A DNA stretch of 64,000 bases from Planctomycetota bacterium (GCA_016873165.1 VGXV01000018.1:1-64000); one strand, 5' to 3'. Shown: positions 40,177 to 61,282, numbered from the stretch's first letter. Program-made: numbers and translations. Notes: generated by a model not told the origin, from the letters alone.

Positions 40177-40806
40177 GTGTGGCGGTACGGCGCTCTCTTT
40201 GAAAGAGAGGGTTGCACGGCGGAGGTAATACAGACCAGTTTTTCCGGCGAGGGGAACAAGGACATCTCCGTCCGTGTTGTCGGAAGGGATTACCGGAAAA
40301 AAGAGTTGTTAACCATTATCGGAAACGAAATTGAGGCAATCCACCGGAAGTCGTTCAGGCACATCAGTTTTAAAATCCTCATCCCCTGCACTACCGCAAA
40401 GTGTGCCTCTTCAGGAAATCCAAAGCTGTTTCCATTGGATGAACTCAACAAGTTGGCAGGCTACGGTGATACTGCTCTCCGTTGCACTGAATGCGGCGAA
40501 AAAGAAGACCTGCCGATTTATGTTCAGGATGATAGTAAACGGCAACAGATGGAAAATGAACTGGAACTGGTGAAGAAGGCATTGGAGGAGATTAAAAAAG
40601 TTCCTAAGGCAGAAGCCAAAGAATCAAAGCCTTTAAGGCGGATTAAACAATTTATCGAAAAACTGGAAAATGCGGATACAAACATCGGCAAGGTAATAAA
40701 AACTATTGATAACGGGATAGAATATGCGCGAAAGTTTGCAGGGTACTATAACGACATCGCCCAATGGTGCGGCCTGCCGCAGGTGCCGAAACCGTTTACA
40801 AAATGA
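40177..40806 (+). pseudogene. C-terminal remnant of a Roco (LRR-Roc-COR) GTPase
   Basis: A frame of 209 residues beginning WRYGALFEREGCTAEVIQTSFSGEGNKDISVRVVGRDYRKKELLTIIGNEIEAIHRK, which I read as the end of the COR domain of bacterial Roco proteins. A Cys-rich stretch (CTTAKC, CTECGEKEDL) and the common tail NGIEYARKFAGYYNDIAQWCGLPQVPKPF follow. An in-frame stop lies just upstream, and no Roc GTPase or LRR part is present, so the gene is a fragment. Whether the fragment is still expressed is unknown. It lies in a gene-poor patch after tRNA-Asn. Confidence 0.6.
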
Positions 40807-41224: not shown

Positions 41225-41476
41225 ATGACAACACAGTCAAGTTTAATTTCAACAATTGAAAGAGAAGGCAAGATATGTGATTTGGCGCTACAAGAGTTAA
41301 AAAACAGATGCAGAATTTTTGAAAACAAATACCATCTTTCTTCAGATGAATTTTATACCCTTTTTCAGGAAGGAAAAATTGGTGATGAAGAAGACTTTTT
41401 TGAGTGGAAGGCGCTGATTGATGGAATTAAAGAATGGGCGCATACAAAGGAAAACTTAAAAGGGCTTATTAAGTGA
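41225..41476 (+). CDS. Putative antitoxin of a two-gene toxin-antitoxin system
   Basis: An 83-residue acidic helical protein: LISTIEREGKICDLALQELKNRCRIFENKYHLSSDEFYTLFQEGKIGDEEDFFEWKALIDG. I recall this type as the upstream partner of DUF6516-like toxins. AAGGAGAT precedes the ATG. Its stop overlaps the toxin's GTG start, as in many toxin-antitoxin operons. Confidence 0.6.
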   Translation: MTTQSSLISTIEREGKICDLALQELKNRCRIFENKYHLSSDEFYTLFQEGKIGDEEDFFEWKALIDGIKEWAHTKENLKGLIK

Positions 41477-42338: not shown

Positions 42339-43148
42339 TTACACGATCGCTTCCAATTCTTTCTTTAATACTTCCGCGGAATGTATGCGATTCAGCGGAT
42401 TCTCCTCCAGTAATCCCAAAACCACCTTGTTGAGTTTCTCGGGAATTGACGGATTTAATTCTACCGGCGAAACGGGATTTTCCTGCCATAGTTTATTTGT
42501 GAGGGCTTCGTAAAGAATCAATCCTACCGCATATAAATCGGATGCAGCCCCGACCTTAATTTTTTTCAATACCTCTTTTTCTCCCTCATTTTTCCTTAAG
42601 AGTTGTATCATCTGCTTCTGTTCCGGAGAGGCGTATTCCTTGCTCATGCCAAGAATTACCTCACCTGTCTTAATCGTACATTCAAGATCTATGAGCGCCA
42701 TTATGCCCGTATTTGCATTTAATATAAGGTGACCGGGTTTAATGTCAGAATGAATGTATCCTTTCGAATGCATATGCGTCAATGGCAATGTCACACTCTC
42801 AAAATGCCGGATCAGATTTTCGATTTCTTTCCGGTCGGACATGTTCCTCTTTTTATAATATTCAGGCACTCCCTCACCTTCAAAATGAGTCATAATGAGA
42901 TAATGCTGCGCCAGAACAAACTTGCCCTCCTTGTGCATGGTATCCCGCCCCACATTATATCGGACAGGAATTTGCGGATGTGAAAAGAGAGAAAGTATCT
43001 TATATTCCCTCGTGTAATCGTTGGAGGGATGATATTTTATGCCCCACTGATTTTCTTTGAACTCAGGATTGCAAAGAATTGCATAATTTGCCCTGTGGCC
43101 CGGCGTAATCCTGAACTCATTAAACTTATATTTGTTAATAGTATACAT
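42339..43148 (-). CDS. Atypical Ser/Thr protein kinase A
   Basis: A 269-residue compact kinase without membrane helix. The beta3 lysine is probably K38 in WGIKYHP, with E48 as its helix-C partner. The catalytic loop is HSDIKPGHLI (133-142), where the usual Asn is His. The DFG position reads DLE (154-156), the activation segment ends EYASPEQ, and SDLYAVGLILYE follows. No glycine-rich loop is obvious. The ATG at 43148 has GGGAGGAG upstream. It is a paralogue of the kinase at 44233 and the two flank a phosphoesterase. Confidence 0.85.
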   Translation of the reverse strand: MYTINKYKFNEFRITPGHRANYAILCNPEFKENQWGIKYHPSNDYTREYKILSLFSHPQIPVRYNVGRDTMHKEGKFVLAQHYLIMTHFEGEGVPEYYKKRNMSDRKEIENLIRHFESVTLPLTHMHSKGYIHSDIKPGHLILNANTGIMALIDLECTIKTGEVILGMSKEYASPEQKQMIQLLRKNEGEKEVLKKIKVGAASDLYAVGLILYEALTNKLWQENPVSPVELNPSIPEKLNKVVLGLLEENPLNRIHSAEVLKKELEAIV

Positions 43149-43194
43149 TCTATCTCCTCCCAACAAGAATATCATGCCTGCTGAATTTGTTTTA

Positions 43195-43287
43195 TTAATG
43201 AGGCATTTGGAGACTTTCAACAATGCAGTGGCAAGGCGCGCCTTGCCGCTGCATAAACAATTTAAAATTCCTTACACATTAAATTAA
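43195..43287. repeat. Repeat family D, copy D3
   Basis: TTAATGAGGCATTTGGAGAC at the left, GTGGCAAGGCGCGCCTTGCC in the middle and AATTCCTTACACATTAAATT at the right. The right end includes the stop codon of the phosphoesterase (43284-43286). Confidence 0.7.
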
Positions 43288-44207
43288 ACCCCTTTTAATA
43301 CCCTCTGAGCCAACTCATTCGGCAATTTTGCTTCGGTTATTCTTTTCGATGCGGCTTCTGCATTATATTTTACTCGCCGGAAACTTATCTGATTTGAAGC
43401 AGAATCAAAAACAACATAACACCCGTCAGGATTTCCATCCCGTGGCTGTCCCAGTGATCCTACGTTGACGTAATATTTCCAGTCATTGTTTTGTTCTACG
43501 GTGAAAGACTCTGTCTTATCGGCGCATTCCTTTTCTATCATCATCAATCGTATATCATAGTTATCCGTAGGAATGAGGACAGAAGCATTTATATCCCTCT
43601 TCTCTTTTGTGTAAATGTACACCGCGGGGCGGTGTGTATGACCTCCAAAGGTGATCGTTGACCATAGGGTAGTGTACTTTAGCACGCTTGCGTTTTTCGC
43701 ATATTCATAGCCACGCGGATAAGAAGGGGTGCCGTGCACTATTTCAAACCGTTCTTTTTTAAATTTTTTCCTCAATGGCAACCATTTCAAAAATCTAAAA
43801 TTTGCTTTTGTTAATACCTCCCTTGTCCAATCGGCGGCTTTTTGCGCAACGGGATTCATTTCCGAAGTGTACGAGGGTTCGCCAACAACCTGTTTATCGT
43901 GATTGCCACCGATAACCACACATTTTCTTTCCATCGATTGAATGGCGTCTGTCATATTCCCATTAAGAGATGCGCCCGGATTCATTTGCCCGAAAATTTC
44001 ACATATTCTTTCCAGCGGCACTTTTCTTTTTCCATACTTCAGGTAGCGCACAATGTCGCAGCATTCATTGGGAGAAGCGCCATACCCGACAATATCACCC
44101 GCGATAAGCAGCCGGTCAACAGTATTTTCCTTCTCTGCTATTTCTTTGATAAATGCCACAAGGGAATCGGCATTTCCATGAATATCTGATATGATAATAT
44201 TTTTCAA
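43284..44207 (-). CDS. Calcineurin-like metallophosphoesterase
   Basis: A 307-residue cytosolic enzyme with the complete two-metal motif set: ISDIHGNADSL, LIAGDIVGYGASP, VIGGNHDKQV, FEIVHGTP and FGGHTHRP. VNVGSLGQPRDGNPDGCYVV near the end is typical of the PPP-like bacterial subgroup. It could be a protein phosphatase opposing the two adjacent kinases, which is an inference from position. Nucleotide or lipid phosphates are alternatives. It lies 25 bases downstream of kinase B in the same transcript direction. Confidence 0.88.
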   Translation of the reverse strand: MKNIIISDIHGNADSLVAFIKEIAEKENTVDRLLIAGDIVGYGASPNECCDIVRYLKYGKRKVPLERICEIFGQMNPGASLNGNMTDAIQSMERKCVVIGGNHDKQVVGEPSYTSEMNPVAQKAADWTREVLTKANFRFLKWLPLRKKFKKERFEIVHGTPSYPRGYEYAKNASVLKYTTLWSTITFGGHTHRPAVYIYTKEKRDINASVLIPTDNYDIRLMMIEKECADKTESFTVEQNNDWKYYVNVGSLGQPRDGNPDGCYVVFDSASNQISFRRVKYNAEAASKRITEAKLPNELAQRVLKGV

Positions 44208-44232
44208 GAGCGCTCTTTCATTACAAATCGTA

Positions 44233-45039
44233 TTAAATATCTAACAACATTTTTTCCAGTTTTTCCGCAGAAGAAATCCTGTTCGAAACGCTTTCTTCCA
44301 AAAGCCTCATTATAATCTCTTCCAATTTTTGAGGGATGCATTTGTTAGTTTTCCGCGGCAAATCCGCCCCTTTCTGCCATACTGTTTTCGTAACTATTTC
44401 ATATAGCAAAAGCCCAATAGAGTACAGATCAGTCCTGCCATCCAGTTGCATTGCGGGGGGAAGGGAGTTTTTATCAGAATCTTCTTTTCGGCTCCTCAAA
44501 TACGCAAGAATCTGCAACTGTTCAGGCGAGGCATACTCTCTGCTGATTCCCCGTAAAGTCTCTCCCTGTTTAATGGCCAACTCAAAATCAATAATATGCC
44601 CCAGACCTGTTTCCTGGTTATAAATCAAATGACCAGGCTTTATATCGCAATGCAAATAATTCATAGCATGCAAATACGATAAGGGATTACATAAAGTGAC
44701 AAATACCTTTACCACCTCATCTATCGTCTCAGAACTTTCTACATTTTTCTCTCTAAAATATTTCACGAGGTCATAACCGCCAATATGTTGCAACACGATA
44801 AAGTTCTGTTTTATTAAAAACTTCTCATCTCTGTATAATTTACCCTGCCCGATATCATACACTTTAGGAATTTGTCTATGGTCAAGTTCCTTAAGAATAT
44901 TATATTCTCCGGAAAAATCGGCATAGGGGGCGTATTTTATTCCCTTTCCGGCGGAATTAGCCAAAACGGCATAATTGGACTTATGTAAATTTGACTCGCA
45001 TTTAAAATCTTGAAAACAATAATTATTAATTGTATACAT
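44233..45039 (-). CDS. Atypical Ser/Thr protein kinase B
   Basis: A 268-residue kinase, a clear paralogue of kinase A: both start MYTINxYxFxxF. K35 in GIKYAP and E45 form the likely Lys-Glu pair. The catalytic loop is HCDIKPGHLI (130-139), again with His for Asn. DFE (151-153) replaces DFG, and EYASPEQ and TDLYSIGLLLYE are conserved. It is read first in the kinase-phosphoesterase-kinase series. No receptor domain is attached. Confidence 0.85.
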   Translation of the reverse strand: MYTINNYCFQDFKCESNLHKSNYAVLANSAGKGIKYAPYADFSGEYNILKELDHRQIPKVYDIGQGKLYRDEKFLIKQNFIVLQHIGGYDLVKYFREKNVESSETIDEVVKVFVTLCNPLSYLHAMNYLHCDIKPGHLIYNQETGLGHIIDFELAIKQGETLRGISREYASPEQLQILAYLRSRKEDSDKNSLPPAMQLDGRTDLYSIGLLLYEIVTKTVWQKGADLPRKTNKCIPQKLEEIIMRLLEESVSNRISSAEKLEKMLLDI

Positions 45040-45972: not shown

Positions 45973-47505
45973 ATGAAATACATTTATAACAAATTTATGA
46001 TCGGTATTTGGCTTTTACTAATAATAGGCCTGTTTATGTTTGGCATGGGGGTTGTTGAAGCGGCCGGAGATCCGAACGGATCAAATACGTATTCCGACAG
46101 TATTGAAGGGTTAAAGATTTCAATTAACGTTGTGTGGACTTTGGTCGGTGCGTTTCTCGTATTCAGCATGCAGGCAGGTTTTGCCTTCTTGGGAGGTTTT
46201 TTACGCCAAAAGAATATGCTTAATTACCTTGCGCACTGCTTCATTGATTCCACGCTGGGTGCGTGCGTTTTCTACTTTTTCGGCTTTGCGGTAATGTTTG
46301 GCGGGGCAAAAACATATTCAGGGCTTGACATAGGATGGCCCGGTCTCGGATGGGACGGTTTTATGCTTTTAGGAGACGCATATGACGTTAAAACCGTTAT
46401 GTTCTGGCTCTTCCAGATGGTATTTGCGACAAAGACAGTGACAATCATCGCAGGCGCCGTTGCGGAAAGAATGAAATTTTTGCCTTACGTAATTTATAGT
46501 TGTTTAATGTGCGGTATTATCTATCCGCTTTATGGTCATTGGGTCTGGGGTGGTGGTTGGCTGAGCACCCTTCCCATCGGCCGCGGGGTAATTGACTTTG
46601 CCGGCTGCGCTGTCGTTCATACCGTTGGCGGCATTATGGCATTAATGGGTGCTTGGGCAGTAGGACCAAGAAAGGGAAAATACAACCCTGACGGCACTCC
46701 CAATGCAATTCCCGGACACAATATGACATATGTTGTCGTTGGATGTTTTATTCTTGCCTTCGGCTGGTTTGGTTTTAACGCCGGCAGCACTGTGGCAGGA
46801 ACCGATTTACGTATATCAATAATTGCAACAAATACCTTCCTTGCAGCCGCAGCAGGCGCTGCGATCATGCTGTTCTTCACATGGGGCAAACAAGGGTTTG
46901 CCGATATTTCTTTTGTTTGCAACGGGGCTTTGGCCGGTTTGGTTGCCATTACCGCTCCTTGTGCTTATGTACCCCCATGGTCTGCTGTAGTTATCGGCGT
47001 ACTCGCAGGACTTATCATGAGAGGCACGGTATCCCTCGTGGAAGTAAAATTGAAAATTGACGACCCTCTTGGCGCAGTTGCAGTGCATGGCGCAAACGGC
47101 ATGTGGGGTATGATTGCCGTGGGATTATTTGCAGACGGAACTTATGGTGTAAACGGTTTGATACTCGGCACCGGCCAGCAGTTGCTTGCCCAATTTATCG
47201 GAACCGTTGTGGCTTTTGCATATGCAATGGCATTCGGAGGCGCAGTATTCTTCGGATTGAAGGGAACAATCGGCTTAAGATCCTCTGACATGGAAGAAGA
47301 AGAGGGACTGGATATCGCATATCACGGCACTTCCTGCTATCCGGTTGAAGAAGGATTGTTTGGCGCCGTAGGAGAACACCTCATCGATGTTAAAGCAGAA
47401 AAAGAACAATTATCTCTGCTTGAAGATGCTATCAGCAAGGACAAGTCACGAGAAAAAATTTATTCCGAGAAACTTGGCAGATGGGTTTATGGTAAGGTAA
47501 AATAA
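45973..47505 (+). CDS. amt: Ammonium transporter Amt (first copy)
   Basis: A 510-residue Amt/Rh channel protein with an N-terminal signal-like helix and eleven membrane helices. The pore residues are present: Trp in YGHWVWGGGWL, Asp and first twin His in IDFAGCAVVHTVGG, Phe in GWFGFNAGST and second twin His in VHGANGMWGM. After the last helix there is a longer tail than usual, including GLFGAVGEHLIDVKAEKEQLSLLEDAISKDK. AAGGAGAGG before ATG 45973 favours this start over an upstream TTG. It is followed by glnK 85 bases later. It imports or senses ammonium, the anammox substrate. Confidence 0.93.
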   Translation: MKYIYNKFMIGIWLLLIIGLFMFGMGVVEAAGDPNGSNTYSDSIEGLKISINVVWTLVGAFLVFSMQAGFAFLGGFLRQKNMLNYLAHCFIDSTLGACVFYFFGFAVMFGGAKTYSGLDIGWPGLGWDGFMLLGDAYDVKTVMFWLFQMVFATKTVTIIAGAVAERMKFLPYVIYSCLMCGIIYPLYGHWVWGGGWLSTLPIGRGVIDFAGCAVVHTVGGIMALMGAWAVGPRKGKYNPDGTPNAIPGHNMTYVVVGCFILAFGWFGFNAGSTVAGTDLRISIIATNTFLAAAAGAAIMLFFTWGKQGFADISFVCNGALAGLVAITAPCAYVPPWSAVVIGVLAGLIMRGTVSLVEVKLKIDDPLGAVAVHGANGMWGMIAVGLFADGTYGVNGLILGTGQQLLAQFIGTVVAFAYAMAFGGAVFFGLKGTIGLRSSDMEEEEGLDIAYHGTSCYPVEEGLFGAVGEHLIDVKAEKEQLSLLEDAISKDKSREKIYSEKLGRWVYGKVK

Positions 47506-47575: not shown

Positions 47576-47929
<354 letters not shown>

Positions 47930-48371: not shown

Positions 48372-49730
48372 TTGAAAAAATATCTCCTTTGTATCATTTC
48401 AATCGCTATAACAGCATTCCTGGCAAACGATGCGTCCGCAGGTGATCCCAGCGGAGCGCTAACCTACTCTGACAGCATACAGGGATTAAAATTCTCAGTA
48501 AATTTTGCATGGACTTTGATGAGCGCCTTCCTGGTTTTCAATATGCAGGTGGGTTTTGTCTTCCTCGGTGCAGGTTTTGTGCAAAAGAAAAACACGCTGA
48601 ATTACGGGGCCATGAGCTTTATGGATTTTTGTGCGGGCACAATAGTTTTCTGGCTCTTCGGCTTCGCTTTAATGTATGGCGGCTCTCAGCTCGCCCCCGG
48701 CCTTGCACACGGAAACAAATTTATCGGCTATAGCGGATTTTTGCTGATAGGGGAAGCATACGACGTGCATATTTCCGTGCTCTGGCTCTTTCAAATGATG
48801 TTCGCCTCTACCGCTTCCACGATTGTGACCGGCGCTATCGCCGAAAGATGTAAATTCCATGCACACCTCCTGAACAGCATATTTCTTTGCGGCATACTCT
48901 ATCCGGTTTATGGCCACTGGATGTGGGGATACGGCTGGCTTGAAACGCTGCCATTTGGGGTAGGGGCAAGAGATTTTGCCGGCTCGGGGGTAGTGCACGG
49001 AGTCGGAGGACTGATTGCCTTTGTTGCCGCATGGATCATCGGGCCGAGATACGGAAAGTTCAATCCCGATGGCAGTTCAAATGTCATCCGGGGACATAAC
49101 CTCCTGTATATTATCATCGGAACACTCATCCTGATTTTTGGCTGGTTTGGCTTTAATGCCGGCAGCACACTCGCCGTCACAGAACTGCGCGTATCGATTA
49201 TAGCGACAAACACCTTTTTAGCCGCTGCGGCCGGCGCTATCGTCATGCTCTATATTTCTTACTTCAGAACAAAAACGTTTGGCATAAGCATGGCCTGCAA
49301 CGGAGCCCTTGCAGGCTGCGTTGCCATTACGGCATCCGGAGCATACGTTCCTCACTGGGCTGCCATTGTAACAGGAGGTATCGGCAGCGCTCTTACAAGC
49401 GTATGCCTGGATATCATCGAGAACAAATTAAAAATTGATGATCCTGTAGGCGCCATATCGGTACACGGTGTTAACGGACTCTGGGGATTGCTTGCTGTGG
49501 GAATTTTTTCCGACGGAACATATGCCAATGTAAAAGGATTAATTACCGGATCGGGCTGGCAACTGCTCGCCCAATTTATCGCGTGTATCACCCTCATCGC
49601 ATGGTGTTTGGGCATGGGTTTTCTTTTTCTCTCTTTTCTGAAACGTATTATAGGCGGATTAAGAGACCCCATCAGCGCGGAACAAAAAGGACTGGATATA
49701 TATGAACATGGGACAGGTTGTTATCAATAA
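48372..49730 (+). CDS. amt: Ammonium transporter Amt (second copy)
   Basis: A 452-residue protein close to the first Amt (shared SDSIQGLKFSVNFAWTL, FLVFNMQVGF). Pore residues: Trp in YGHWMWGYGWL, Asp and His in RDFAGSGVVHGVGG, GWFGFNAGST, and His in VHGVNGLWGLLAVG. It lacks the long tail of the first copy. It begins at TTG with CAGGG upstream; no ATG fits the signal helix. No glnK follows directly; the next gene is glnK of the third amt. Confidence 0.92.
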   Translation: MKKYLLCIISIAITAFLANDASAGDPSGALTYSDSIQGLKFSVNFAWTLMSAFLVFNMQVGFVFLGAGFVQKKNTLNYGAMSFMDFCAGTIVFWLFGFALMYGGSQLAPGLAHGNKFIGYSGFLLIGEAYDVHISVLWLFQMMFASTASTIVTGAIAERCKFHAHLLNSIFLCGILYPVYGHWMWGYGWLETLPFGVGARDFAGSGVVHGVGGLIAFVAAWIIGPRYGKFNPDGSSNVIRGHNLLYIIIGTLILIFGWFGFNAGSTLAVTELRVSIIATNTFLAAAAGAIVMLYISYFRTKTFGISMACNGALAGCVAITASGAYVPHWAAIVTGGIGSALTSVCLDIIENKLKIDDPVGAISVHGVNGLWGLLAVGIFSDGTYANVKGLITGSGWQLLAQFIACITLIAWCLGMGFLFLSFLKRIIGGLRDPISAEQKGLDIYEHGTGCYQ

Positions 49731-50262: not shown

Positions 50263-50616
<354 letters not shown>

Positions 50617-50676: not shown

Positions 50677-52023
50677 ATGAAAAAATTCTGTTGCCTGATA
50701 ATTTTGAGCTTTATAGCGGTAATGGCCGCTTCATCCGCAGCATGGGCGGGAGAAAATGTTTTGGATACGGGAAACAATGCATGGATACTTATGTCATCGG
50801 CATTAGTGCTTCTTATGACTCCAGGACTTGCTTTCTTTTACGGAGGAATGTGTTCCTCAAAAAATATCATCAATATGCTGATGATGGTCTTTATGTGCAT
50901 GGCCGTCGTCAGCATCCAATGGGTATTCTGGGGATACTCCCTCTCATTTGGAGAAGATCGCGGCAGTTTTATCGGAAGTCTGGCAAAGGTTGGTCTGCGG
51001 GGCATAACGCCTGAAACGCTCTCCGGCACCATTCCGGAATACACCTTTCTGGCATTCCAGGCAACGTTTGCCATTATTACTGTGGGGCTTATGATGGGCG
51101 CTGTTGAGGGACGCATGAAATTCAGCACATTTTTAATATTCATCCCTCTGTGGGCAACCGCCGTATATGACCCGGTATGCCACTGGGTATGGGGCGGGGG
51201 ATTTCTCCAAAAATGGAAAGTGCTGGATTTTGCAGGCGGAACGGTGGTGCATATAAATTCAGGAGCCGCTGCGCTTGCCCTTGTAATATTGCTCGGAAAA
51301 CGCAGGAAACAAAACATACGCCCCCCCTGCAATGTTCCCATGGTGCTCCTCGGCACCGGACTGCTCTGGTTCGGCTGGTTCGGTTTTAATGCGGGCAGCG
51401 AACTTGCCTCCGACGGAAGGGCTGCGTTTGCATGGGTAATAACAAACTCTGCTGCCGCCACCGCTTGCTTCGTATGGATGGTATGCGAATGGATTCACCG
51501 GAAAAAACCCACGCTTATCGGAGCGGCATCGGGAGCGGTCGCCGGTCTTGTCGCCATAACCCCGGCATCCGGTTTTGTCGGCCCGCTGGGCGCCATACAG
51601 ATCGGAATTATGGCAGGCGTCGGATGTTACTTCGCCAGCATGAAATTGAAGGCGCTCTTTGGGTATGATGACGCGCTGGATGTGGTTGGCGTTCATGGAA
51701 TTGGCGGCACGATAGGCGCATTTGCCACAGGACTCTATTGCACCAAAATGGTGATGGGACCAGGCGGAGTTGACGGTTTATTCATTGGCTGGAGCATTGA
51801 AGGAGGCAGACAATTAGGTTTGCAGTGCATTGGTTTCATAATCTCATGGGCATATGCATTTGCGGTGACCATGTTCATCGGAGTGTTTCTCAAATATACC
51901 ATAGGGTTAAGAACCACAGAAACACAGGAAGACACCGGCCTCGATATTACACAGCACGGCGAGATCGGCTACCATCTTGAAATGGAATCCACAAGCACCC
52001 TGAAAGTTCCGGCAGGCCATTAA
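50677..52023 (+). CDS. amt: Ammonium transporter Amt (third copy)
   Basis: A 448-residue protein of the other Amt subgroup in this window (WILMSSALVLLMTPGLAFFYGG). Pore residues: FQATFAII, Trp in CHWVWGGGFL, Asp and His in LDFAGGTVVHINSG, GWFGFNAGSEL and His in VGVHGIGGTIGAFATG. Signal-like N-terminus (MKKFCCLIILSFIAVMAASSAAWAG). AAAGGAGGT gives a strong start. Probably co-transcribed with glnK 60 bases upstream. Confidence 0.94.
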   Translation: MKKFCCLIILSFIAVMAASSAAWAGENVLDTGNNAWILMSSALVLLMTPGLAFFYGGMCSSKNIINMLMMVFMCMAVVSIQWVFWGYSLSFGEDRGSFIGSLAKVGLRGITPETLSGTIPEYTFLAFQATFAIITVGLMMGAVEGRMKFSTFLIFIPLWATAVYDPVCHWVWGGGFLQKWKVLDFAGGTVVHINSGAAALALVILLGKRRKQNIRPPCNVPMVLLGTGLLWFGWFGFNAGSELASDGRAAFAWVITNSAAATACFVWMVCEWIHRKKPTLIGAASGAVAGLVAITPASGFVGPLGAIQIGIMAGVGCYFASMKLKALFGYDDALDVVGVHGIGGTIGAFATGLYCTKMVMGPGGVDGLFIGWSIEGGRQLGLQCIGFIISWAYAFAVTMFIGVFLKYTIGLRTTETQEDTGLDITQHGEIGYHLEMESTSTLKVPAGH

Positions 52024-52144: not shown

Positions 52145-52627
52145 TTACCGGTTGTCTTTTGAAAGAGGTCTGAGTTTTCTCAGGCTGTGATTGCAATAAG
52201 GACACCTTCTTATAAAAAGATACATAAAAAAGAGAAGGATCGCCCAAATCCCCGCCGTAAAGAAAAAAAGCATAACGTCTCCAAAATCCAATTTATGAAT
52301 CCTCACGGGAACGACTCGCTTTTCACAATACCGGCAAAAAACCGCCTCCTGTTTTTTTGCCGACCGTTGACCGCCAAAAACTCTTCTCAAATTTTTAAAT
52401 GAAATTGTGTTAAATCTTTTTTCCTCCCGCCAGCCTCTCTTCACGATATAATGTATGCATTCATACTCTTTAAGATTATTGCGTACTGTATTAAACTTCC
52501 TCGCTAAAAATAATTCTACACGAAATCCTTTCGGAGGTTTTTCCCCGGAGTATTTCTTTAATAGAAAACATTCCGGATCATCGAATATTTCTATGATAGT
52601 TTTCCTGATCTTCTCTTTATCGATCAT
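52145..52627 (-). CDS. Membrane protein with zinc-ribbon-like cysteines
   Basis: A 160-residue protein. The N-terminal basic domain is followed by FCRYCEKRVVPV (CxxC), one membrane helix (VMLFFFTAGIWAILLFFMYLFI) and CPYCNHSLRKLRPL (CxxC). The two CxxC pairs on either side of the helix suggest a zinc ribbon split by a hydrophobic segment. Function unknown. It converges with the third amt gene. Confidence 0.6.
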   Translation of the reverse strand: MIDKEKIRKTIIEIFDDPECFLLKKYSGEKPPKGFRVELFLARKFNTVRNNLKEYECIHYIVKRGWREEKRFNTISFKNLRRVFGGQRSAKKQEAVFCRYCEKRVVPVRIHKLDFGDVMLFFFTAGIWAILLFFMYLFIRRCPYCNHSLRKLRPLSKDNR

Positions 52628-53284: not shown

Positions 53285-56236
53285 ATGTCTGATAATTTAA
53301 AACTATTAACCGAACTCATACATGAAATAATAAGAGCAAAGGATTTCGATTCCGCCCTTTACACGGTATTGCGTCAGATATGCGAGGCTACGGAATGGGT
53401 ATACGGAGATGTATGGCTGCCTTCTTCAGACGGAACGTATCTGGTATTGCATCAGGCATACTGTCAGTATGAAAAGCTGGAGATTTTTAAAGAGAAAGGC
53501 AAAGACCTCTCTCTCCCTCCCGGAGTCGGCCTTCCCGGACGCATATGGTCTTCTAAAAAACCCGCATGGATATTGGACGTCACCTGCGATGCCAATTTCC
53601 CGCGCGCCCCGATTGCCAGGGAATGCGGTTTAAAAGCAGGCATGGGTGTTCCGATACTTGACAATGAAGAAGTTGTAGCGGTAATGTCGTTTTTTATCTT
53701 CGAACGAAAGGAAGAAGACGAACAAATGGTTGCCCTCGTGGCCGCGGCTGCCGCGGAATTGGGAAATATACTCAAATACAAACAAATGGAGAGGAAGCTC
53801 GTGCAGTTATCCAGCGCGGTAGAACAAAGTGTTTGCAGCGTTATCATCACCGACACGAACGGAACGATAGAATACGTAAACCCAAAATTCATACAAATGA
53901 CCGGATACACACCTGACGAAGTTATTGGAGAAAATCCGTGCATATTAAAATCAGGAGTGACCGGGCCGGAGGAATATAAAGATTTATGGAAAACAATTAC
54001 CGGAGGGGACAATTGGCAGGGCGTGCTTTGCAACAGGAAAAAAAACGGCGAATTGTACTGGGAACTCGCAAACATCTCACCGATAAAGGATCGCAACGGC
54101 AATATCACTCATTTTCTGGGATGCAAAGAAGATATTACCGCGCGCAAGAGAAGCGAATGGCGGTTGCGGGCGCAATATCACGTAACATGCATTCTGGCGG
54201 AGTCTGACTCTCTCTCCGAATCATTCCAAAAAATTCTCAAGGTCGTCTGCGAATGTCTGGAGTGGGATATCGGTGAAATTTGGTTAACAGACCATAACGC
54301 AAATGTATTGCGTATCGCGGAAACATGGTGCACGCCTGCAAGAAAATTTCCCAAATTTATGGAATTGACAAAACAAATCACCTTTTCAAAAAGCATCGGT
54401 TTGCCAGGAAGCATCTGGAATAGCAAAAAAACAATCTGGATTGAGGATGTTACACGGGAAACAAATTTTCCGAGATCAATTCTTGCGGAAAGAGAAGGAT
54501 TGCACAGCGCCTTTGGTTTTCCCATTATCAGCAATGAAGATTGCTTCGGGGTAATGGTTTTTTTAACTCACAAAATACAATCACCCGACAATGAAATACT
54601 CGACATGATAAACGCCATCAGCAATCAAATTAGCCAGTTCATCATGCGAAAACATGCGGAAGCACAGCTCCATAAGCTATCACAGGCCGTAGAACAAAGC
54701 CCAAGCACTATCATCATCACCAACACAAACGGTTGCATCCAATACGTAAACCACGGATTTACCCAATTAACCGGTTACACACTGGAAGAAGTCATCGGAA
54801 TGACGCCTTCTTTTTTGGATTCGGGCATCACCCCTCCTGAAGATTACAAACGGCTATGGGGCTCTATCAGTTCCGTAAAAGAAGGCGAAGGGGAAGTAAT
54901 CAGCAAAAAGAAGAACGGAGAATTTTATTATGAAAAAATCCGCATTTCCTTAATAAAAGACGAAAGAGACCTTGTTACAAATATCCTCATAACGGGAGAA
55001 GACATCACCTCCATAAAAGAAGCGGCGGAGGAACAGGAGAAACTGAAAGAACAACTGTACCACGCGCAAAGACTGGAATCTATCGGTCAGCTTGCCGGAG
55101 GCATTGCCCATGACTTTAACAATATCATAATGGCAATCACGGGATATGCGAATATCTTGAAAATGGAACTGGCGGAAAACGACCCGCTGCAGCAATACAT
55201 AACAAAACAACTCTCCGCCACTGAAAAGGCAACCGCATTAACAAACGGACTCCTTACCTTCGGCAGAAAACGCGCGTTCAGCCTCCAATTAACCGGCGTC
55301 AACGGCATCATAAAAAGCGCCGGGGGTTTTATTGAAATGCTTATGAGAAAAAATATCCGACAGGACATTGTTCTTTCGGAAGAAGACTGTTTTGTTATGG
55401 CAGATAAAAATCAGATAGAACAGGCAATAGTAAATCTTTCCACAAATGCGAGGGATGCCATGCCTGACGGGGGCGTTTTAAGCATATGCTCAAAAAAAGT
55501 AACAATGGATGGAGCATTTATAAAGGCACACGGGTACGGCAAAGAAGGAAAGTATGCCCTGATATCCGTTGCCGATTCCGGAATTGGCATGGATGAAAAA
55601 ACGAAAAAAAGAATTTTTGAACCCTTTTTTACCACCAAGGAAATAGGGAAGGGAACCGGACTGGGCCTTTCAATTGTGTATGGCATTATAAAGCAGCATA
55701 ATGGATTTATTGATGTTCAAAGCAGGCCGGGGAAAGGCACGACATTTCATATGTATCTCCCCCTGTCCAATGCTCCCTCATTGCCCGATGAACCGGTTCC
55801 AAAGATTCGCAATGTTATTGAACACAACAGCATTCCGGAACCAAACCCTGATTCTCTAAAGGGCAGAGAAAAAATACTTCTTGCGGAGGATGACGAAGGA
55901 ATTCGAATGCTTCTTGAAAACGTGCTGAAAAGGAATGGCTACAGGGTAATAGTTGCCGTGAACGGAGAAGACGCGGTAAACAAATTCACGGAAAATCAAA
56001 ATTCAATTCAGCTCCTCTTATTCGATGTGGCCATGCCTGTATTAAACGGGAAGGACGCGTATGGCAAAATTAAGAACATACGGCCGGATATAAAGACCAT
56101 TTTCATGAGCGGATTTTGTGATGATTTTTTTCATAAAAAATGCTTTTCAGGCGAAGAAGAATTTCGTTTTGTCACAAAACCTATTTTGCCAGGCAAACTT
56201 TTGGCAATTATCAGAGAAGTCATAGATAAACAGTAA
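53285..56236 (+). CDS. Cytosolic hybrid histidine kinase (GAF-PAS-GAF-PAS-HisKA-HATPase-REC)
   Basis: A 983-residue protein without membrane helices. GAF1 (about 15-165), PAS1 (about 178-295, ITDTNGTIEYVNPKF), GAF2 (about 305-460), PAS2 (about 470-595, ITNTNGCIQYVNHGF), HisKA with LAGGIAHDFNNIIMAITG, HATPase with IVNLSTNARDAM and EPFFTTKEIGKGTGLGLSIVYG, and a receiver (about 865-983, Asp in LLLFDVAMP). The two GAF-PAS units are internal duplications. No DNA-binding domain is attached. It heads a co-directional signalling group placed among the amt genes, suggesting sensing of nitrogen or redox state, unproven. Confidence 0.93.
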   Translation: MSDNLKLLTELIHEIIRAKDFDSALYTVLRQICEATEWVYGDVWLPSSDGTYLVLHQAYCQYEKLEIFKEKGKDLSLPPGVGLPGRIWSSKKPAWILDVTCDANFPRAPIARECGLKAGMGVPILDNEEVVAVMSFFIFERKEEDEQMVALVAAAAAELGNILKYKQMERKLVQLSSAVEQSVCSVIITDTNGTIEYVNPKFIQMTGYTPDEVIGENPCILKSGVTGPEEYKDLWKTITGGDNWQGVLCNRKKNGELYWELANISPIKDRNGNITHFLGCKEDITARKRSEWRLRAQYHVTCILAESDSLSESFQKILKVVCECLEWDIGEIWLTDHNANVLRIAETWCTPARKFPKFMELTKQITFSKSIGLPGSIWNSKKTIWIEDVTRETNFPRSILAEREGLHSAFGFPIISNEDCFGVMVFLTHKIQSPDNEILDMINAISNQISQFIMRKHAEAQLHKLSQAVEQSPSTIIITNTNGCIQYVNHGFTQLTGYTLEEVIGMTPSFLDSGITPPEDYKRLWGSISSVKEGEGEVISKKKNGEFYYEKIRISLIKDERDLVTNILITGEDITSIKEAAEEQEKLKEQLYHAQRLESIGQLAGGIAHDFNNIIMAITGYANILKMELAENDPLQQYITKQLSATEKATALTNGLLTFGRKRAFSLQLTGVNGIIKSAGGFIEMLMRKNIRQDIVLSEEDCFVMADKNQIEQAIVNLSTNARDAMPDGGVLSICSKKVTMDGAFIKAHGYGKEGKYALISVADSGIGMDEKTKKRIFEPFFTTKEIGKGTGLGLSIVYGIIKQHNGFIDVQSRPGKGTTFHMYLPLSNAPSLPDEPVPKIRNVIEHNSIPEPNPDSLKGREKILLAEDDEGIRMLLENVLKRNGYRVIVAVNGEDAVNKFTENQNSIQLLLFDVAMPVLNGKDAYGKIKNIRPDIKTIFMSGFCDDFFHKKCFSGEEEFRFVTKPILPGKLLAIIREVIDKQ

Positions 56237-56276
56237 TATAACAGGGGTTCAAAAAAGTCATTTATAGGGTCAATTT

Positions 56277-57365
56277 ATGATTACCGAAAAAGAAAAAAGT
56301 CCGGCAAAACAACCGGCTGATAACGGAACCTTCAGCCCCGAACGCATCACCAATCTGGCAATACAGCTATCTTCAAAAATGGACAGCGCAATCAAGGATA
56401 TTCAAAAAATCACTTTCCAGTCCAAAATTCTCTCGCTTAACGCAAAAGTAGAAGCCGCAAGAGCCGGAGAAGTTGGCGCGGCATTTTCCGTTGTGGCAAC
56501 GGAAATGGGTTCCTTATCGCAGGAAATTTCAGGCCTGGTGGAAAATCTGGAAAAAGATGCTTCGAAAGATTTTAAGGAAATTGCAAAAATCAACGAAAAT
56601 ATCTCAACCAATTACAAAGGTCTCCGGTTATCAGACCTGGCTTTAACGAATATAGACTTAATTGACCGGAATTTGTACGAAAGATCATGCGACGTCCGGT
56701 GGTGGGCAACGGACAGCAGCTTCGTTGATGCCCTGTCGAAGAAAACCCCTGAAGTATATAATCTCGCTTCACAGCGAATGGGCATTATCCTCAACGCCTA
56801 CACCGTATACTTTGACCTTGTTTTATGCAATCCGGAAGGCATGATCGTGGCGAATGGAAGAAGCGACCGCTACCGTTCCGTAGGGGAAGATGCTTCCCGG
56901 TCAAAATGGTTTCAGGAGGCGATGAAATGTGCGACAGGAGATGATTTCGGATGGGGAGTTGTGCATCGCTCTCCGCTCGTGAATAACGAACTTGCTTTAA
57001 TATACACAACCGCCGTGCGTGAAAACGGAGACAAATACGGCAATATCATTGGCGCGCTGGGAATTATTTTTAAATTTTCAGCGCTTGCGCAAACCATTGT
57101 AGAAAATACTCCTTTAAGCAAGGAAGAAAAACCAAAAAGCCGTGTCTGTGTCGTTGATGCAAAAGGGCTTGTCCTGGCTGACACACATCACAGGAATCTT
57201 GAAGACACTATCGATTTCCCCAACAAATTTACCTTATTTGAAGGGAAAAAAGGATTCATCATCACCGATTACAATAACACAAAATGTTGTATTGCGCATG
57301 CCAGAGCTCCCGGTTATGAGACATATACCACCGGCTGGCATTCATTAATTATTCAGACAATGTAA
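56277..57365 (+). CDS. Inverted chemoreceptor-like protein (MCP signalling hairpin then Cache)
   Basis: A 362-residue soluble protein. Residues about 20-90 contain the methyl-accepting-protein hairpin tip ILSLNAKVEAARAGEVGAAFSVVATEMGSLSQEIS. A linker and a Cache-like sensor follow from about 130 to the end (YFDLVLCNPEGMIVANGRSDRY, SKWFQEAMK, VCVVDAKGLVLADTHHRN). No signal peptide or membrane helix is seen, and the order is opposite to ordinary chemoreceptors. It lies 41 bases after the hybrid kinase and ten before the HD-GYP regulator. No che genes are nearby, so the output is unclear. Confidence 0.75.
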   Translation: MITEKEKSPAKQPADNGTFSPERITNLAIQLSSKMDSAIKDIQKITFQSKILSLNAKVEAARAGEVGAAFSVVATEMGSLSQEISGLVENLEKDASKDFKEIAKINENISTNYKGLRLSDLALTNIDLIDRNLYERSCDVRWWATDSSFVDALSKKTPEVYNLASQRMGIILNAYTVYFDLVLCNPEGMIVANGRSDRYRSVGEDASRSKWFQEAMKCATGDDFGWGVVHRSPLVNNELALIYTTAVRENGDKYGNIIGALGIIFKFSALAQTIVENTPLSKEEKPKSRVCVVDAKGLVLADTHHRNLEDTIDFPNKFTLFEGKKGFIITDYNNTKCCIAHARAPGYETYTTGWHSLIIQTM

Positions 57366-57375
57366 TTCTTGCATT

Positions 57376-58596
57376 ATGCTTTATACACAAAAATTTGACT
57401 CATTTGTAAAAATTACGCATTTAAACCACCCGCCAACAGCGGCGCCGGAAACCCTGCATACAAAAACGAAGATCCTCGTTGCAGATGACGACACTTTTGT
57501 CTTAGATTCCGTTTCCATATTACTCAAAAAATCCGGTTACACCTTCGATGCGTATGATAACGCGACAGAGGCGCTTGCAAAGCTGCAGGCATCCGCCGAT
57601 ATTGATGTCGTATTAACAGATTTTCAAATGCCTGACGTTTCCGGAATTGAATTTCTCGAAAAAATACGGGCGTTCAACCCGGAAATACCGGTAATCATAA
57701 TGACGGCATATGCGGAATTAAACATCGCTATCAACGCGATAAAAAGAGGTGTTTTTGATTTTTTACTGAAACCCTTCCAGCCGGATCAATTATATCACAC
57801 GATAAAAAAGGCCGTTAAATATTATAAACTCACACAATTAGAAAAAAATTATACAACTACCCTGGAAAATATGGTCTCTGAGAAAACAAAAGAATTGGCA
57901 AATGCCCTGGAAATAAACAGAAAAATGAGCAGTGAACTAATACAACGCCTGTCGCTTGCGACAGAATACAGGGATTTCAAAACAGGCGCGCATATTTCCA
58001 AATTAGGATTATATACCGAAAGAATATCGCACGTTTTAGGCCTTCCCGGGAAATTTACGAAAACCATACAATGCGCAAGCGCAATGCATGATATCGGCAA
58101 AATCGGGATACCCGATGAAATCCTTCTGAAGAACGGCTTACTATGCCATGAAGAATTTGAAACTATGAAAAAGCACACCCTTATCGGCGAAAAAATTCTT
58201 TCAGGGTCATCATATTTCACCATACAAATGTCGGCAAGCATCGCATTAAATCACCATGAGAGATGGAACGGAACCGGTTACCCGAGAGGATTAAAGGGAG
58301 AAGATATTCCCATCGAAGGCAGAATAACCACGATTTGCGACCAATATGATGCTTTGAGAAGCGAAAGACCATACAAATCGCCCTGCACTCACAGGGAAGC
58401 ATTTGAAATACTAACAAAAGGTGATGGCAAAACAATGCCGGAACATTTCGACCCAAAGGTATTAAACGCATTCATTGAAGTTGCTTCTGATTTTAATGAT
58501 ATTTTTCACACGAAGCATCCGTGGCCCGATCAGTCACAAGGGAGGAAGAAAGCCCTCTTTTTGAATAATCATGAACAATATATTAATAGTAGATGA
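57376..58596 (+). CDS. Response regulator with HD-GYP domain
   Basis: A 406-residue protein. The receiver (about 33-150) has acidic pocket VADDD, phosphoacceptor in VVLTDFQMP and Lys in LLKPF. A helical linker leads to an HD-GYP domain: MHDIGKIGIPDEIL, KKHTLIGEKIL, NHHERWNGTGYPRGLKGEDIP and ICDQYDALRSERPYK. HD-GYP proteins hydrolyse cyclic di-GMP. The motif is complete, so it should be active. The next gene starts inside its last 26 bases. Confidence 0.93.
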   Translation: MLYTQKFDSFVKITHLNHPPTAAPETLHTKTKILVADDDTFVLDSVSILLKKSGYTFDAYDNATEALAKLQASADIDVVLTDFQMPDVSGIEFLEKIRAFNPEIPVIIMTAYAELNIAINAIKRGVFDFLLKPFQPDQLYHTIKKAVKYYKLTQLEKNYTTTLENMVSEKTKELANALEINRKMSSELIQRLSLATEYRDFKTGAHISKLGLYTERISHVLGLPGKFTKTIQCASAMHDIGKIGIPDEILLKNGLLCHEEFETMKKHTLIGEKILSGSSYFTIQMSASIALNHHERWNGTGYPRGLKGEDIPIEGRITTICDQYDALRSERPYKSPCTHREAFEILTKGDGKTMPEHFDPKVLNAFIEVASDFNDIFHTKHPWPDQSQGRKKALFLNNHEQYINSR

Positions 58597-58954
58597 CGAA
58601 TGTCAAATCCGTGAGGTGATAAAATTTTTTCTGGAGAAACAAGGATACAGGATATTTGAAGCCTCAAACGGTTTTAAGGCCATTGAATTATGCAAATTAA
58701 ATGAATTTGATGCAGTAATTGCTGATATTTATATGCCGGGAATGGATGGTATAAAATTTATTGAGGAATTGCTGAAATTTTCCCCAAAAACAAAGGTCAT
58801 CGCTATTTCCGGCGGCGAGCAATGTCACTTTTTTTCATCAGGTTTGCCACTCGCTTCCGCAATGCACAGGGGTGCGCTCTACTCATTAAAGAAACCCATT
58901 AATATGGAAGAATTGCTGAACATTATTAAAGAAATTGTAGTATCGGAATCGTAA
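58571..58954 (+). CDS. Single-domain response regulator (CheY-like)
   Basis: A 127-residue receiver: NILIVDDECQIREVIKFFL, phosphoacceptor Asp in AVIADIYMPGMDG, Ser/Thr switch in VIAISGGEQ and Lys in SLKKPINMEELL. It overlaps the HD-GYP gene by 26 bases and ends the signalling group. It probably shuttles phosphate from the hybrid kinase. Confidence 0.92.
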   Translation: MNNILIVDDECQIREVIKFFLEKQGYRIFEASNGFKAIELCKLNEFDAVIADIYMPGMDGIKFIEELLKFSPKTKVIAISGGEQCHFFSSGLPLASAMHRGALYSLKKPINMEELLNIIKEIVVSES

Positions 58955-60140: not shown

Positions 60141-60359
60141 CTTAACTTAATGACATTGAGTGGCAAGGCGCACCTTGCCACCACAACATTATTAAAAGTT
60201 GGCAAAGGCATAATTTAATGTTTAGGAAATTCAATTATAGCAGGGTGGGCATTGCCCACCGTCTCACGTCGCTTGTAGAGACGCATAGCAATGCGTCTCT
60301 ACGTTTGGTGGGTAATGCCCACCCTTACTCTGTTAAAAGTCGCCAAAGGCCTAATTTAT
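60141..60359. repeat. Repeat family D, copies D5 and D6 in tandem
   Basis: D5 (to about 60215) has core GTGGCAAGGCGCACCTTGCCAC and right end TTGGCAAAGGCATAATTTAA. D6 (about 60212-60359) has left end TAATGTTTAGGAAATTCAAT, cores GGTGGGCATTGCCCACC and GTAGAGACGCATAGCAATGC with inverse, and right end GTCGCCAAAGGCCTAATTTA. D6 covers the first codons of the cytochrome frame at 60218. Confidence 0.75.
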
Positions 60360-61282
60360 TTCCCCTTTTCACAATATTCTTTCTTATTACTTTTTCCTTT
60401 CATTCTGACGGAATCTGTCAGAATTTTGTGATTAACGGAGAGTTGCAAAACAGCGGGGCGGAAGAAACTCTTAAAAATAGCATTGTTCGAAAGGAATCCC
60501 TCATCATTAAAGACAAAAGGGTTTATATACAGGTGATAATAGATCAGGGGGCAAAACACCTTACGGATCATAACCGGTACAAAAAAATGATGTATGTATT
60601 GCCAAAAGAAATCACGTATGATGATATGAGCAAACGCATCTATTATTACACCGAAGATACAGAAATCGAAATCGGGCAGATGAAGGACTTTTTAGGGTTT
60701 ATGCCTTATATAGGCTTATCGGAAGGTGTGAAAATCGTAAGTTCTCCTGCTGATGCAAAATTATTGATTTCTTCTGACAACAATAAAGATATTTCCCTGC
60801 CGGTAATACATTCTGATGAAAACATGAACGATACCTTGAGCAAGAAATGCGGACAGTGCCATCTGTTAGAATATATTTTTTCTCACAAAGACTGGACGGA
60901 GGAAGACGTCCTGCACGCATTCAACCGATTGCAAACGGAACGGGAAGAGAGGTTCACGAACGATGAACTTGAAATAATTACGCTATTCAAAAAATACCAA
61001 AAAGGCGAAATAGACAAAAAAAAACTCACTGAATTTCAGTCTCTGAAACATATGGCAGAAAAAGATATTAAAGACGTCACCGAAGGTGTGTATAGCAATA
61101 ATTGCATCCCATGCCACAATCCATCCAAAATGAACGACATTACATTATTATATTCAACACAAAGATGCAAAAGTATTGTGGAGAGAATGAAGGAGAAAGA
61201 GCCTTCTCTTTTTTTAGGCACGGACATGGACAGATTAGCCAGTTATCTATGGGAAATAAAACTTAAGCCTTGTGAAAATTAG
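60218..61282 (+). CDS. Exported dihaem c-type cytochrome, 5' end altered by a repeat
   Basis: A frame of 354 residues. Two haem c motifs, CGQCH (about residue 211) and CIPCH (about 299), lie in the C-terminal half. The preceding part is a beta-rich domain of unknown family (FVINGELQNSGAEETLKNSIV..). A signal peptide, LFPLFTIFFLITFSFHSDGICQ, begins only at about residue 48. The first 47 residues come from repeat D6, so the original start has been replaced. Translation may now begin in the repeat or at a non-ATG codon near 60359. It precedes the fourth amt, so electron transfer linked to ammonium status is conceivable. Confidence 0.7.
   Translation: MFRKFNYSRVGIAHRLTSLVETHSNASLRLVGNAHPYSVKSRQRPNLFPLFTIFFLITFSFHSDGICQNFVINGELQNSGAEETLKNSIVRKESLIIKDKRVYIQVIIDQGAKHLTDHNRYKKMMYVLPKEITYDDMSKRIYYYTEDTEIEIGQMKDFLGFMPYIGLSEGVKIVSSPADAKLLISSDNNKDISLPVIHSDENMNDTLSKKCGQCHLLEYIFSHKDWTEEDVLHAFNRLQTEREERFTNDELEIITLFKKYQKGEIDKKKLTEFQSLKHMAEKDIKDVTEGVYSNNCIPCHNPSKMNDITLLYSTQRCKSIVERMKEKEPSLFLGTDMDRLASYLWEIKLKPCEN

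Follow-up and report, generated by a model that had tools for sequence, protein, structure and literature searches.

The T-loop of PII plugs the pore of Amt channels, and in proteobacteria the uridylylation of Tyr51 frees PII from the channel. In cyanobacteria, the eraser of PII phosphorylation is PphA, a PP2C-type enzyme. This phosphorylation takes place at Ser49 in some cyanobacteria, and the kinase has been reported as unidentified (PMC4285133, PMC11863333). In actinobacteria, glnD is found in an amtB-glnK-glnD operon (PMC4285133). Furthermore, fungal and plant ammonium transporters are under the control of C-terminal phosphorylation (PMC4852598), and for prokaryotic ammonium transporters a keyword search of a review found phosphorylation only for KsAmt5, which is fused to a histidine kinase (PMC10433425).

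Here, two Hanks-type kinases, KinA and KinB, and a calcineurin-like metallophosphoesterase (MPPE) are described, for which we see an even chance that they form a writer/eraser system for the Amt1-PII1-Amt2 ammonium-uptake unit, the predicted substrate, and replace GlnD. The window, i.e., the whole stretch of DNA that was analysed, comprises 64,000 nt of a Planctomycetota bacterium (GCA_016873165.1 VGXV01000018.1:1-64000). Among named relatives, Ca. Kuenenia hertensis is the closest (84% identity for KinA), and the window is part of a Kuenenia-like anammox genome. All three genes are encoded on the minus strand: KinA (44233..45039, 268 aa), MPPE (43284..44207, 307 aa, TTG start), which starts 25 nt downstream of KinA, and KinB (42339..43148, 269 aa), a paralogue of KinA with 41% identity. 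The gap between MPPE and KinB contains a 16-nt inverted repeat. For KinB, the ATG at 43148 was favoured over the upstream TTG at 43223 of the ORF list and is the most likely start, since GGAGGAG is present just upstream and this start is kept in relatives. The divergent neighbour of KinA is the ammonium transporter Amt1 (PF00909; 45919..47505, plus strand) with a C-terminal extension ending in ...REKIYSEKLGRWVYGKVK. On the same strand follow PII1 (GlnK; 47591..47929), Amt2 without the tail extension (48372..49730), the GlnK paralogue PII2 with Thr43 and Tyr51 (50269..50616) and Amt3 (50677..52023), which scores above the TIGR00836 cut-off. An identical Amt/PII order, amt_1, nrp_1, amt_2, nrp_2, amt_3, is known from K. 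stuttgartiensis (PMC7438415).

Both kinases score above the Pfam Pkinase cut-off (PF00069; 60.3 bits for KinA and 51.7 bits for KinB against 31.7 bits). By fold as well as by sequence, the PDB entries nearest to the two proteins are Ser/Thr kinases of the PknB and StkP group, with which KinA and KinB share the Hanks-type fold, the HxDxK motif, an APE-like SPE and the F-helix Asp; the AlphaFold (AF2) model of KinA displays a kinase fold with a pLDDT of 91.6, and its top PDB match is PknB. In contrast to PknB/StkP, KinA and KinB have neither a membrane nor a PASTA part, occur as two fixed paralogues and differ within the active site, where the Gly-rich loop is lacking, His replaces Asn and DxE replaces DFG. 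In place of GxGxxG, a feature on which the first-pass annotation was silent, a conserved H[KR]SNYA (KinA; HKSNYA in the window) or PGHRANYA (KinB) is found. The catalytic loop reads HCDIKPGHLI in KinA and HSDIKPGHLI in KinB, followed by DFE and DLE, respectively, and the key residues of KinA are K35, E45, D132, K134, H137 at the position of Asn and D151-F-E153. That two paralogous kinases share HxDIKPGHLI, with His for Asn and DLE or DFE, had been noted at first pass and is confirmed, since all KinA (41/41) and KinB (31/31) orthologues have both HxDxKPGH and DxE; the exchanges of Asn for His and of the DFG Gly for Glu are signatures of the family. Equally invariant in these 41 and 31 proteins are the beta-3 Lys, the alpha-C Glu, the HxD Asp and the DFG Asp. 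A codon-pattern search for HxDIKPGH, which covers the Ile form only, matched solely KinA and KinB in 392 Planctomycetota genomes, and the reversed-pattern control gave 0 matches. KinA and KinB are two of the three Hanks-type kinases in the genome of the window; the third is canonical with HKDIKPSN and DFG.

Between Kuenenia species, the dN/dS values of KinA, KinB and MPPE are 0.05-0.16, which indicates purifying selection. The core Lys, the HRD Asp and the DFG Asp, the loss of which marks a pseudokinase, are all kept. Due to the retained Lys, Glu and both Asp residues, KinA and KinB appear active, and since the lost Gly-rich loop, Asn and DFG Gly are canonical sub-features, they are placed in a divergent Hanks-type subfamily that is probably active, as far as can be inferred from sequence. 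A role in defence was rejected as well: for the anti-phage kinase MADS6 / PD-T4-6 the MAD6 score of 52.8 bits stayed far below the cut-off of 460, the PADLOC matches reflect general kinase similarity, and the neighbours are Amt and PII genes and no defence genes. Searches of phages and plasmids yielded only distant Ser/Thr kinases with <30% identity.

The sample of the order comprised 62 genomes of the families f1 (Brocadiaceae), f3 (Scalinduaceae, as inferred), f94, f2 and f95. Of these, 49 have KinA, 50 have MPPE and about 46 have KinB, and within the order all three are confined to f1, f3 and f94. The family f2, by inference the Bathyanammoxibiaceae, harbors the hydrazine synthase and none of the three genes, which rules out an anammox-wide trait. 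A phylum-wide search of 294 genomes at E 1e-25 gave zero matches outside the order. Scanning 84,980 species revealed 13 close relatives, 12 of them named Planctomycetota or Brocadiaceae; the remaining one, a KinA resembling that of Scalindua, is encoded on a contig labelled 'Parcubacteria group NP996' (L042), probably a case of mis-binning. Phylogenetically, KinA and KinB form two clades with 100/100 support, and according to the tree their divergence is older than the split of the families. In the literature searched, neither an earlier description of this system nor a paper naming the probable Kuenenia locus tags of the three genes was found.

The neighbour search suggested by the first-pass annotation led to the Amt1-PII1-Amt2 unit. 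In 32 of 48 testable genomes, belonging to three families, an Amt is the immediate upstream divergent neighbour of KinA. In three Scalindua genomes the KinA-MPPE pair is rearranged and Amt1 is still located within about 1.2 kb, and in G267 and G292 other members of the Amt cluster occupy the neighbour position. KinA is unlinked from Amt in ten Brocadia genomes and in G318. KinB caps the far end of the Amt1-PII1-Amt2 block in f3 and f94. In most Brocadiaceae it is not linked to KinA, and only in Kuenenia and G267 do the two adjoin. The proposal of a 'self-contained' switch is therefore not upheld, since KinB is mostly unlinked in Brocadiaceae and the Amt1-PII1-Amt2 unit adjoins across three families; a closed switch of three genes is also argued against by an MPPE that is intact in a genome (G070) without the kinases. 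The remaining neighbours vary by family, c5 being present only in f3 and f94 and MoaC only in Brocadiaceae, where it lies downstream of the module in convergent orientation. MoaC, which had been suggested as a target, is thus an opposite-facing neighbour within a single family, and this suggestion was dropped. Sensor histidine kinases are encoded further downstream (53285-58954); since they are missing from the kinase loci of other genomes of the order, they were not regarded as partners.

Several further genes of these loci were recorded. The gene c4 (52145..52627, minus strand) encodes a 160-aa protein with weak zinc-ribbon similarity and no assigned protein family; in three bacterial families it is conserved next to KinB or Amt3, and in Scalinduaceae it lies between the two. 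The gene at 60218-61282 encodes a protein of 354 aa that has CxxCH haem-like motifs and matches no Pfam family; it is conserved within the Amt cluster, where it adjoins Amt4 (Brocadiaceae), and related genes are found beside Amt in f2. Between AccD and MoaC, a COR-B (Roc-COR) C-terminal fragment (40177-40806) and a small protein weakly similar to the antitoxin TumA (41225-41476) are encoded. In G295, a third KinA-like kinase lies ~4 kb from another, divergent PII gene (L104 3526-4338, 8316-8705), a possible second kinase-PII pair.

The distribution of GlnD is complementary to that of the kinases. The GlnD/GlnE domain PF08335 is present in all 10 kinase-free genomes (9 of f2 and 1 of f95), whereas a genome-wide search did not find it in any of the 52 genomes of f1, f3 and f94; one PF08335 protein of f2 scores above the cut-off for GlnD, and a second one is GlnE. 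The kinase-bearing lineages are therefore without a recognisable enzyme for PII uridylylation. This complementarity could reflect one evolutionary event seen many times. GlnD and the module described here would have the modification of PII in common, and the actinobacterial glnD has the same genomic position as KinA-MPPE. In contrast, the proteins belong to unrelated families, and within the order their distribution is mutually exclusive. In GlnD-bearing f2 genomes (L187, L188, L191), tandem divergent PII genes adjoin Amt; their T-loops are unusual, with sequences such as WQGKTYVVE and WRGHRHQEE.

Where the PII1 signature is missing, KinA is missing too; the exceptions are G313, G324 and G325, which have KinA, located at a contig edge, without PII1. 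G070, which is 99% complete, has neither a PII match nor a tailed Amt1 nor KinB, and its KinA is split over several frames. This pattern would not be explained by one deletion, since the genes are mostly unlinked in its genus Brocadia. G106 lacks KinA, MPPE, PII1 and Amt1 and has kept KinB; here the genes are linked, and the co-loss is weaker evidence. In G320, KinA, MPPE and KinB are all missing, and its best PII match comes no nearer to PII1 than PII2-type proteins do. A clean deletion of Amt1 is observed in G292, which has retained PII1, KinA, MPPE and KinB. These cases reveal that KinA follows PII1 more closely than Amt1.

MPPE scores above the Pfam Metallophos cut-off (PF00149; 49.2 vs 21.5 bits). 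Its ligand motifs DxH, GD, GNHD, H and GHxH are all present, and the ligands D8, H10, D38, N102, H103, H158, H190 and H192 are kept in 30/30 proteins, which bears out the earlier view of a phosphoesterase with all metal ligands between the kinases. MPPE directly follows KinA in 49/49 genomes of three families, so that the further proposal of a paired kinase/phosphoesterase module without a receptor domain is supported. The closest solved structure is 3rqz, followed by 3qfm (SapH, an asymmetric Ap4A hydrolase), 1nnw and 2gju. The fold and the metal ligands are common to all; MPPE differs by an inserted region of ~60 aa that is not present in 3rqz and by a kinase as fixed operon partner. PP1, PP2A and PP5 are far weaker matches (about 1e-5 to 1e-6). 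In G070, MPPE is intact and constrained despite the broken KinA and the missing KinB and PII, and due to this its dedication to KinA and KinB is unsure. With an Ap4A hydrolase among its structural relatives and its retention in G070, MPPE, a putative phosphoprotein phosphatase, is the weakest link of the switch model. In many Scalindua genomes, a second MPPE paralogue is found beside KinA-MPPE (L109 17237-18151, L113 12957-13871, L114 13662-14576).

Within the T-loop of PII1, Ser43 and Tyr51 are invariant in all 33 PII proteins adjoining a tailed Amt1. Other PII proteins mostly have Thr43, and the nearest ones of f2 and f95 have Thr43 and Phe51. As in cyanobacteria, a reversible Ser/Thr phosphorylation of the T-loop in response to the nitrogen status is proposed here. 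In contrast to the cyanobacterial protein, residue 49 of PII1 is Arg or Lys, which excludes a Ser49-type site and leaves Ser43 and Tyr51 as candidates; likewise, the proposed eraser is MPPE instead of PphA.

A second candidate site lies in the conserved C-terminal tail of Amt1 (approximately 47305..47502, plus strand; GLDIAYHG... to the end), to which the tail profile matches at 47329-47502 with E 4.6e-28. This tail is unique to Amt1 among the Amts and absent in the kinase-free f2 and f95, and the tailed Amt1 is missing where KinA is lost (G070, G106). It contains an IYS motif, R-E-x-I-Y-S-x-K-[LI]-G-x-W, that does not vary among 33 Amt1 proteins. An ammonium channel with a candidate kinase-controlled C-terminal region resembles fungal Mep2/Npr1 and plant AMT1; in contrast to these, the motif REKIYSxKLGxW is unrelated in sequence, the host is a bacterium and PII is also present. 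In Scalinduaceae, SulP/STAS permeases end in a similar motif, [RK]ExIYSx[KR]LxKW[VI], some of them beside a likely carbonic anhydrase (L213 1948-3729, L214 4923-6563, L215, L216, L218, L219, L220, L222, L225). The IYS motif is thus a portable tag shared by the C-termini of two unrelated transporters, Amt1 and SulP. Since SulP carries it in G320, a genome without the kinases, the motif may serve for docking or targeting and not as a phosphosite. Second Amt1 copies in Scalindua have a tail that ends before the IYS motif and lie in loci without KinA (L217 9219-10676, L221 3549-5009, L223 4312-5772), some near CBS-domain proteins or a PII1-type gene.

In the proposed mechanism, one or both kinases would phosphorylate a component of the Amt1-PII1-Amt2 unit, most likely the T-loop of PII1 at Ser43 and/or Tyr51, with the IYS motif of the Amt1 tail as second candidate. 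PII1 is preferred since G292 has lost Amt1 and kept PII1 together with all three genes. Phosphorylated PII would then be released from the channel under ammonium limitation, which is the predicted direction of control, and MPPE would probably strip the phosphate, so that this modification would stand in for the lost modification by GlnD. Taken furthest, KinA and/or KinB would be the first recognised dedicated PII kinases, acting on Ser43/Tyr51 of the PII1 T-loop by a divergent active site without Gly-rich loop and with His for the metal-binding Asn, and together with MPPE would have replaced GlnD in most anammox bacteria. This is put forward tentatively. Many PII proteins are never modified (PMC4285133), which counts against PII kinases, and the unlinked KinA of Brocadia, the lack of Ser49 in PII1 and the MPPE kept in G070 speak against a switch.

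It is unlikely, in our judgement, that the kinases target the IYS motif of the Amt1 tail instead of PII1, which would be a direct channel switch like that of Mep2 (Ser457) and AMT1;1 (T460). The restriction of the tail to the Amt beside KinA, the invariance of its motif, its disappearance together with KinA and the C-terminal control of Mep2 and AMT1 (PMC4852598) would fit such a switch. However, G292 keeps the three module genes without Amt1 and without a motif-bearing SulP, and in G320 the motif occurs on a SulP permease without any of the kinases, which weakens the tail as sole target. We hold it to be distinctly improbable that KinA and KinB are pseudokinases or adaptors, i.e., ATP-binding regulators which bind the Amt-PII unit without phosphotransfer. 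The replacement of the Gly-rich loop, the catalytic-loop Asn and the DFG Gly is fixed family-wide, and the missing loop together with the Asn-to-His change could mean weak or absent catalysis. Nevertheless, K35, E45, D132 and D151 are invariant, the His is fixed and not random, as would suit an altered yet working metal site, and the predicted fold is closest to that of the active PknB.

Equally poor are the chances of a reading in which MPPE has a small-molecule substrate, for instance Ap4A or a phosphodiester, and has only its operon in common with KinA, while the kinases act on each other or outside the Amt unit. SapH and uncharacterised phosphoesterases among the closest solved relatives, the far lower scores of true PP1/PP2A-type proteins and the retention in G070 are in line with it; the invariable position behind KinA and the KinA-MPPE pair following PII1 across the order are not. 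Very unlikely is an old ammonium-responsive regulon only, in which the genes would be co-expressed with amt1 and act elsewhere, e.g., in dissimilatory control. Although ammonium limitation leads to upregulation of the K. stuttgartiensis amt_1-amt_3 cluster (PMC7438415) and KinA is divergent from the amt operon and not inside it, the loss of KinA accompanies the loss of PII1 even when the two are unlinked, as in G070 of Brocadia.

For anammox bacteria, ammonium is the fuel as well as an assimilated nutrient. The regulation of their many Amt channels has been described as not known (PMC7438415), and an anammox-confined pair of kinases tied to one Amt-PII unit gives a concrete, testable answer to this. 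The fixed His within the catalytic loop and the lack of a Gly-rich loop in an apparently active family would further serve as a probe for the requirements of phosphotransfer. KinA, KinB and MPPE may thus supply the on/off control of ammonium uptake that is missing in lineages without the usual PII-modifying enzyme.
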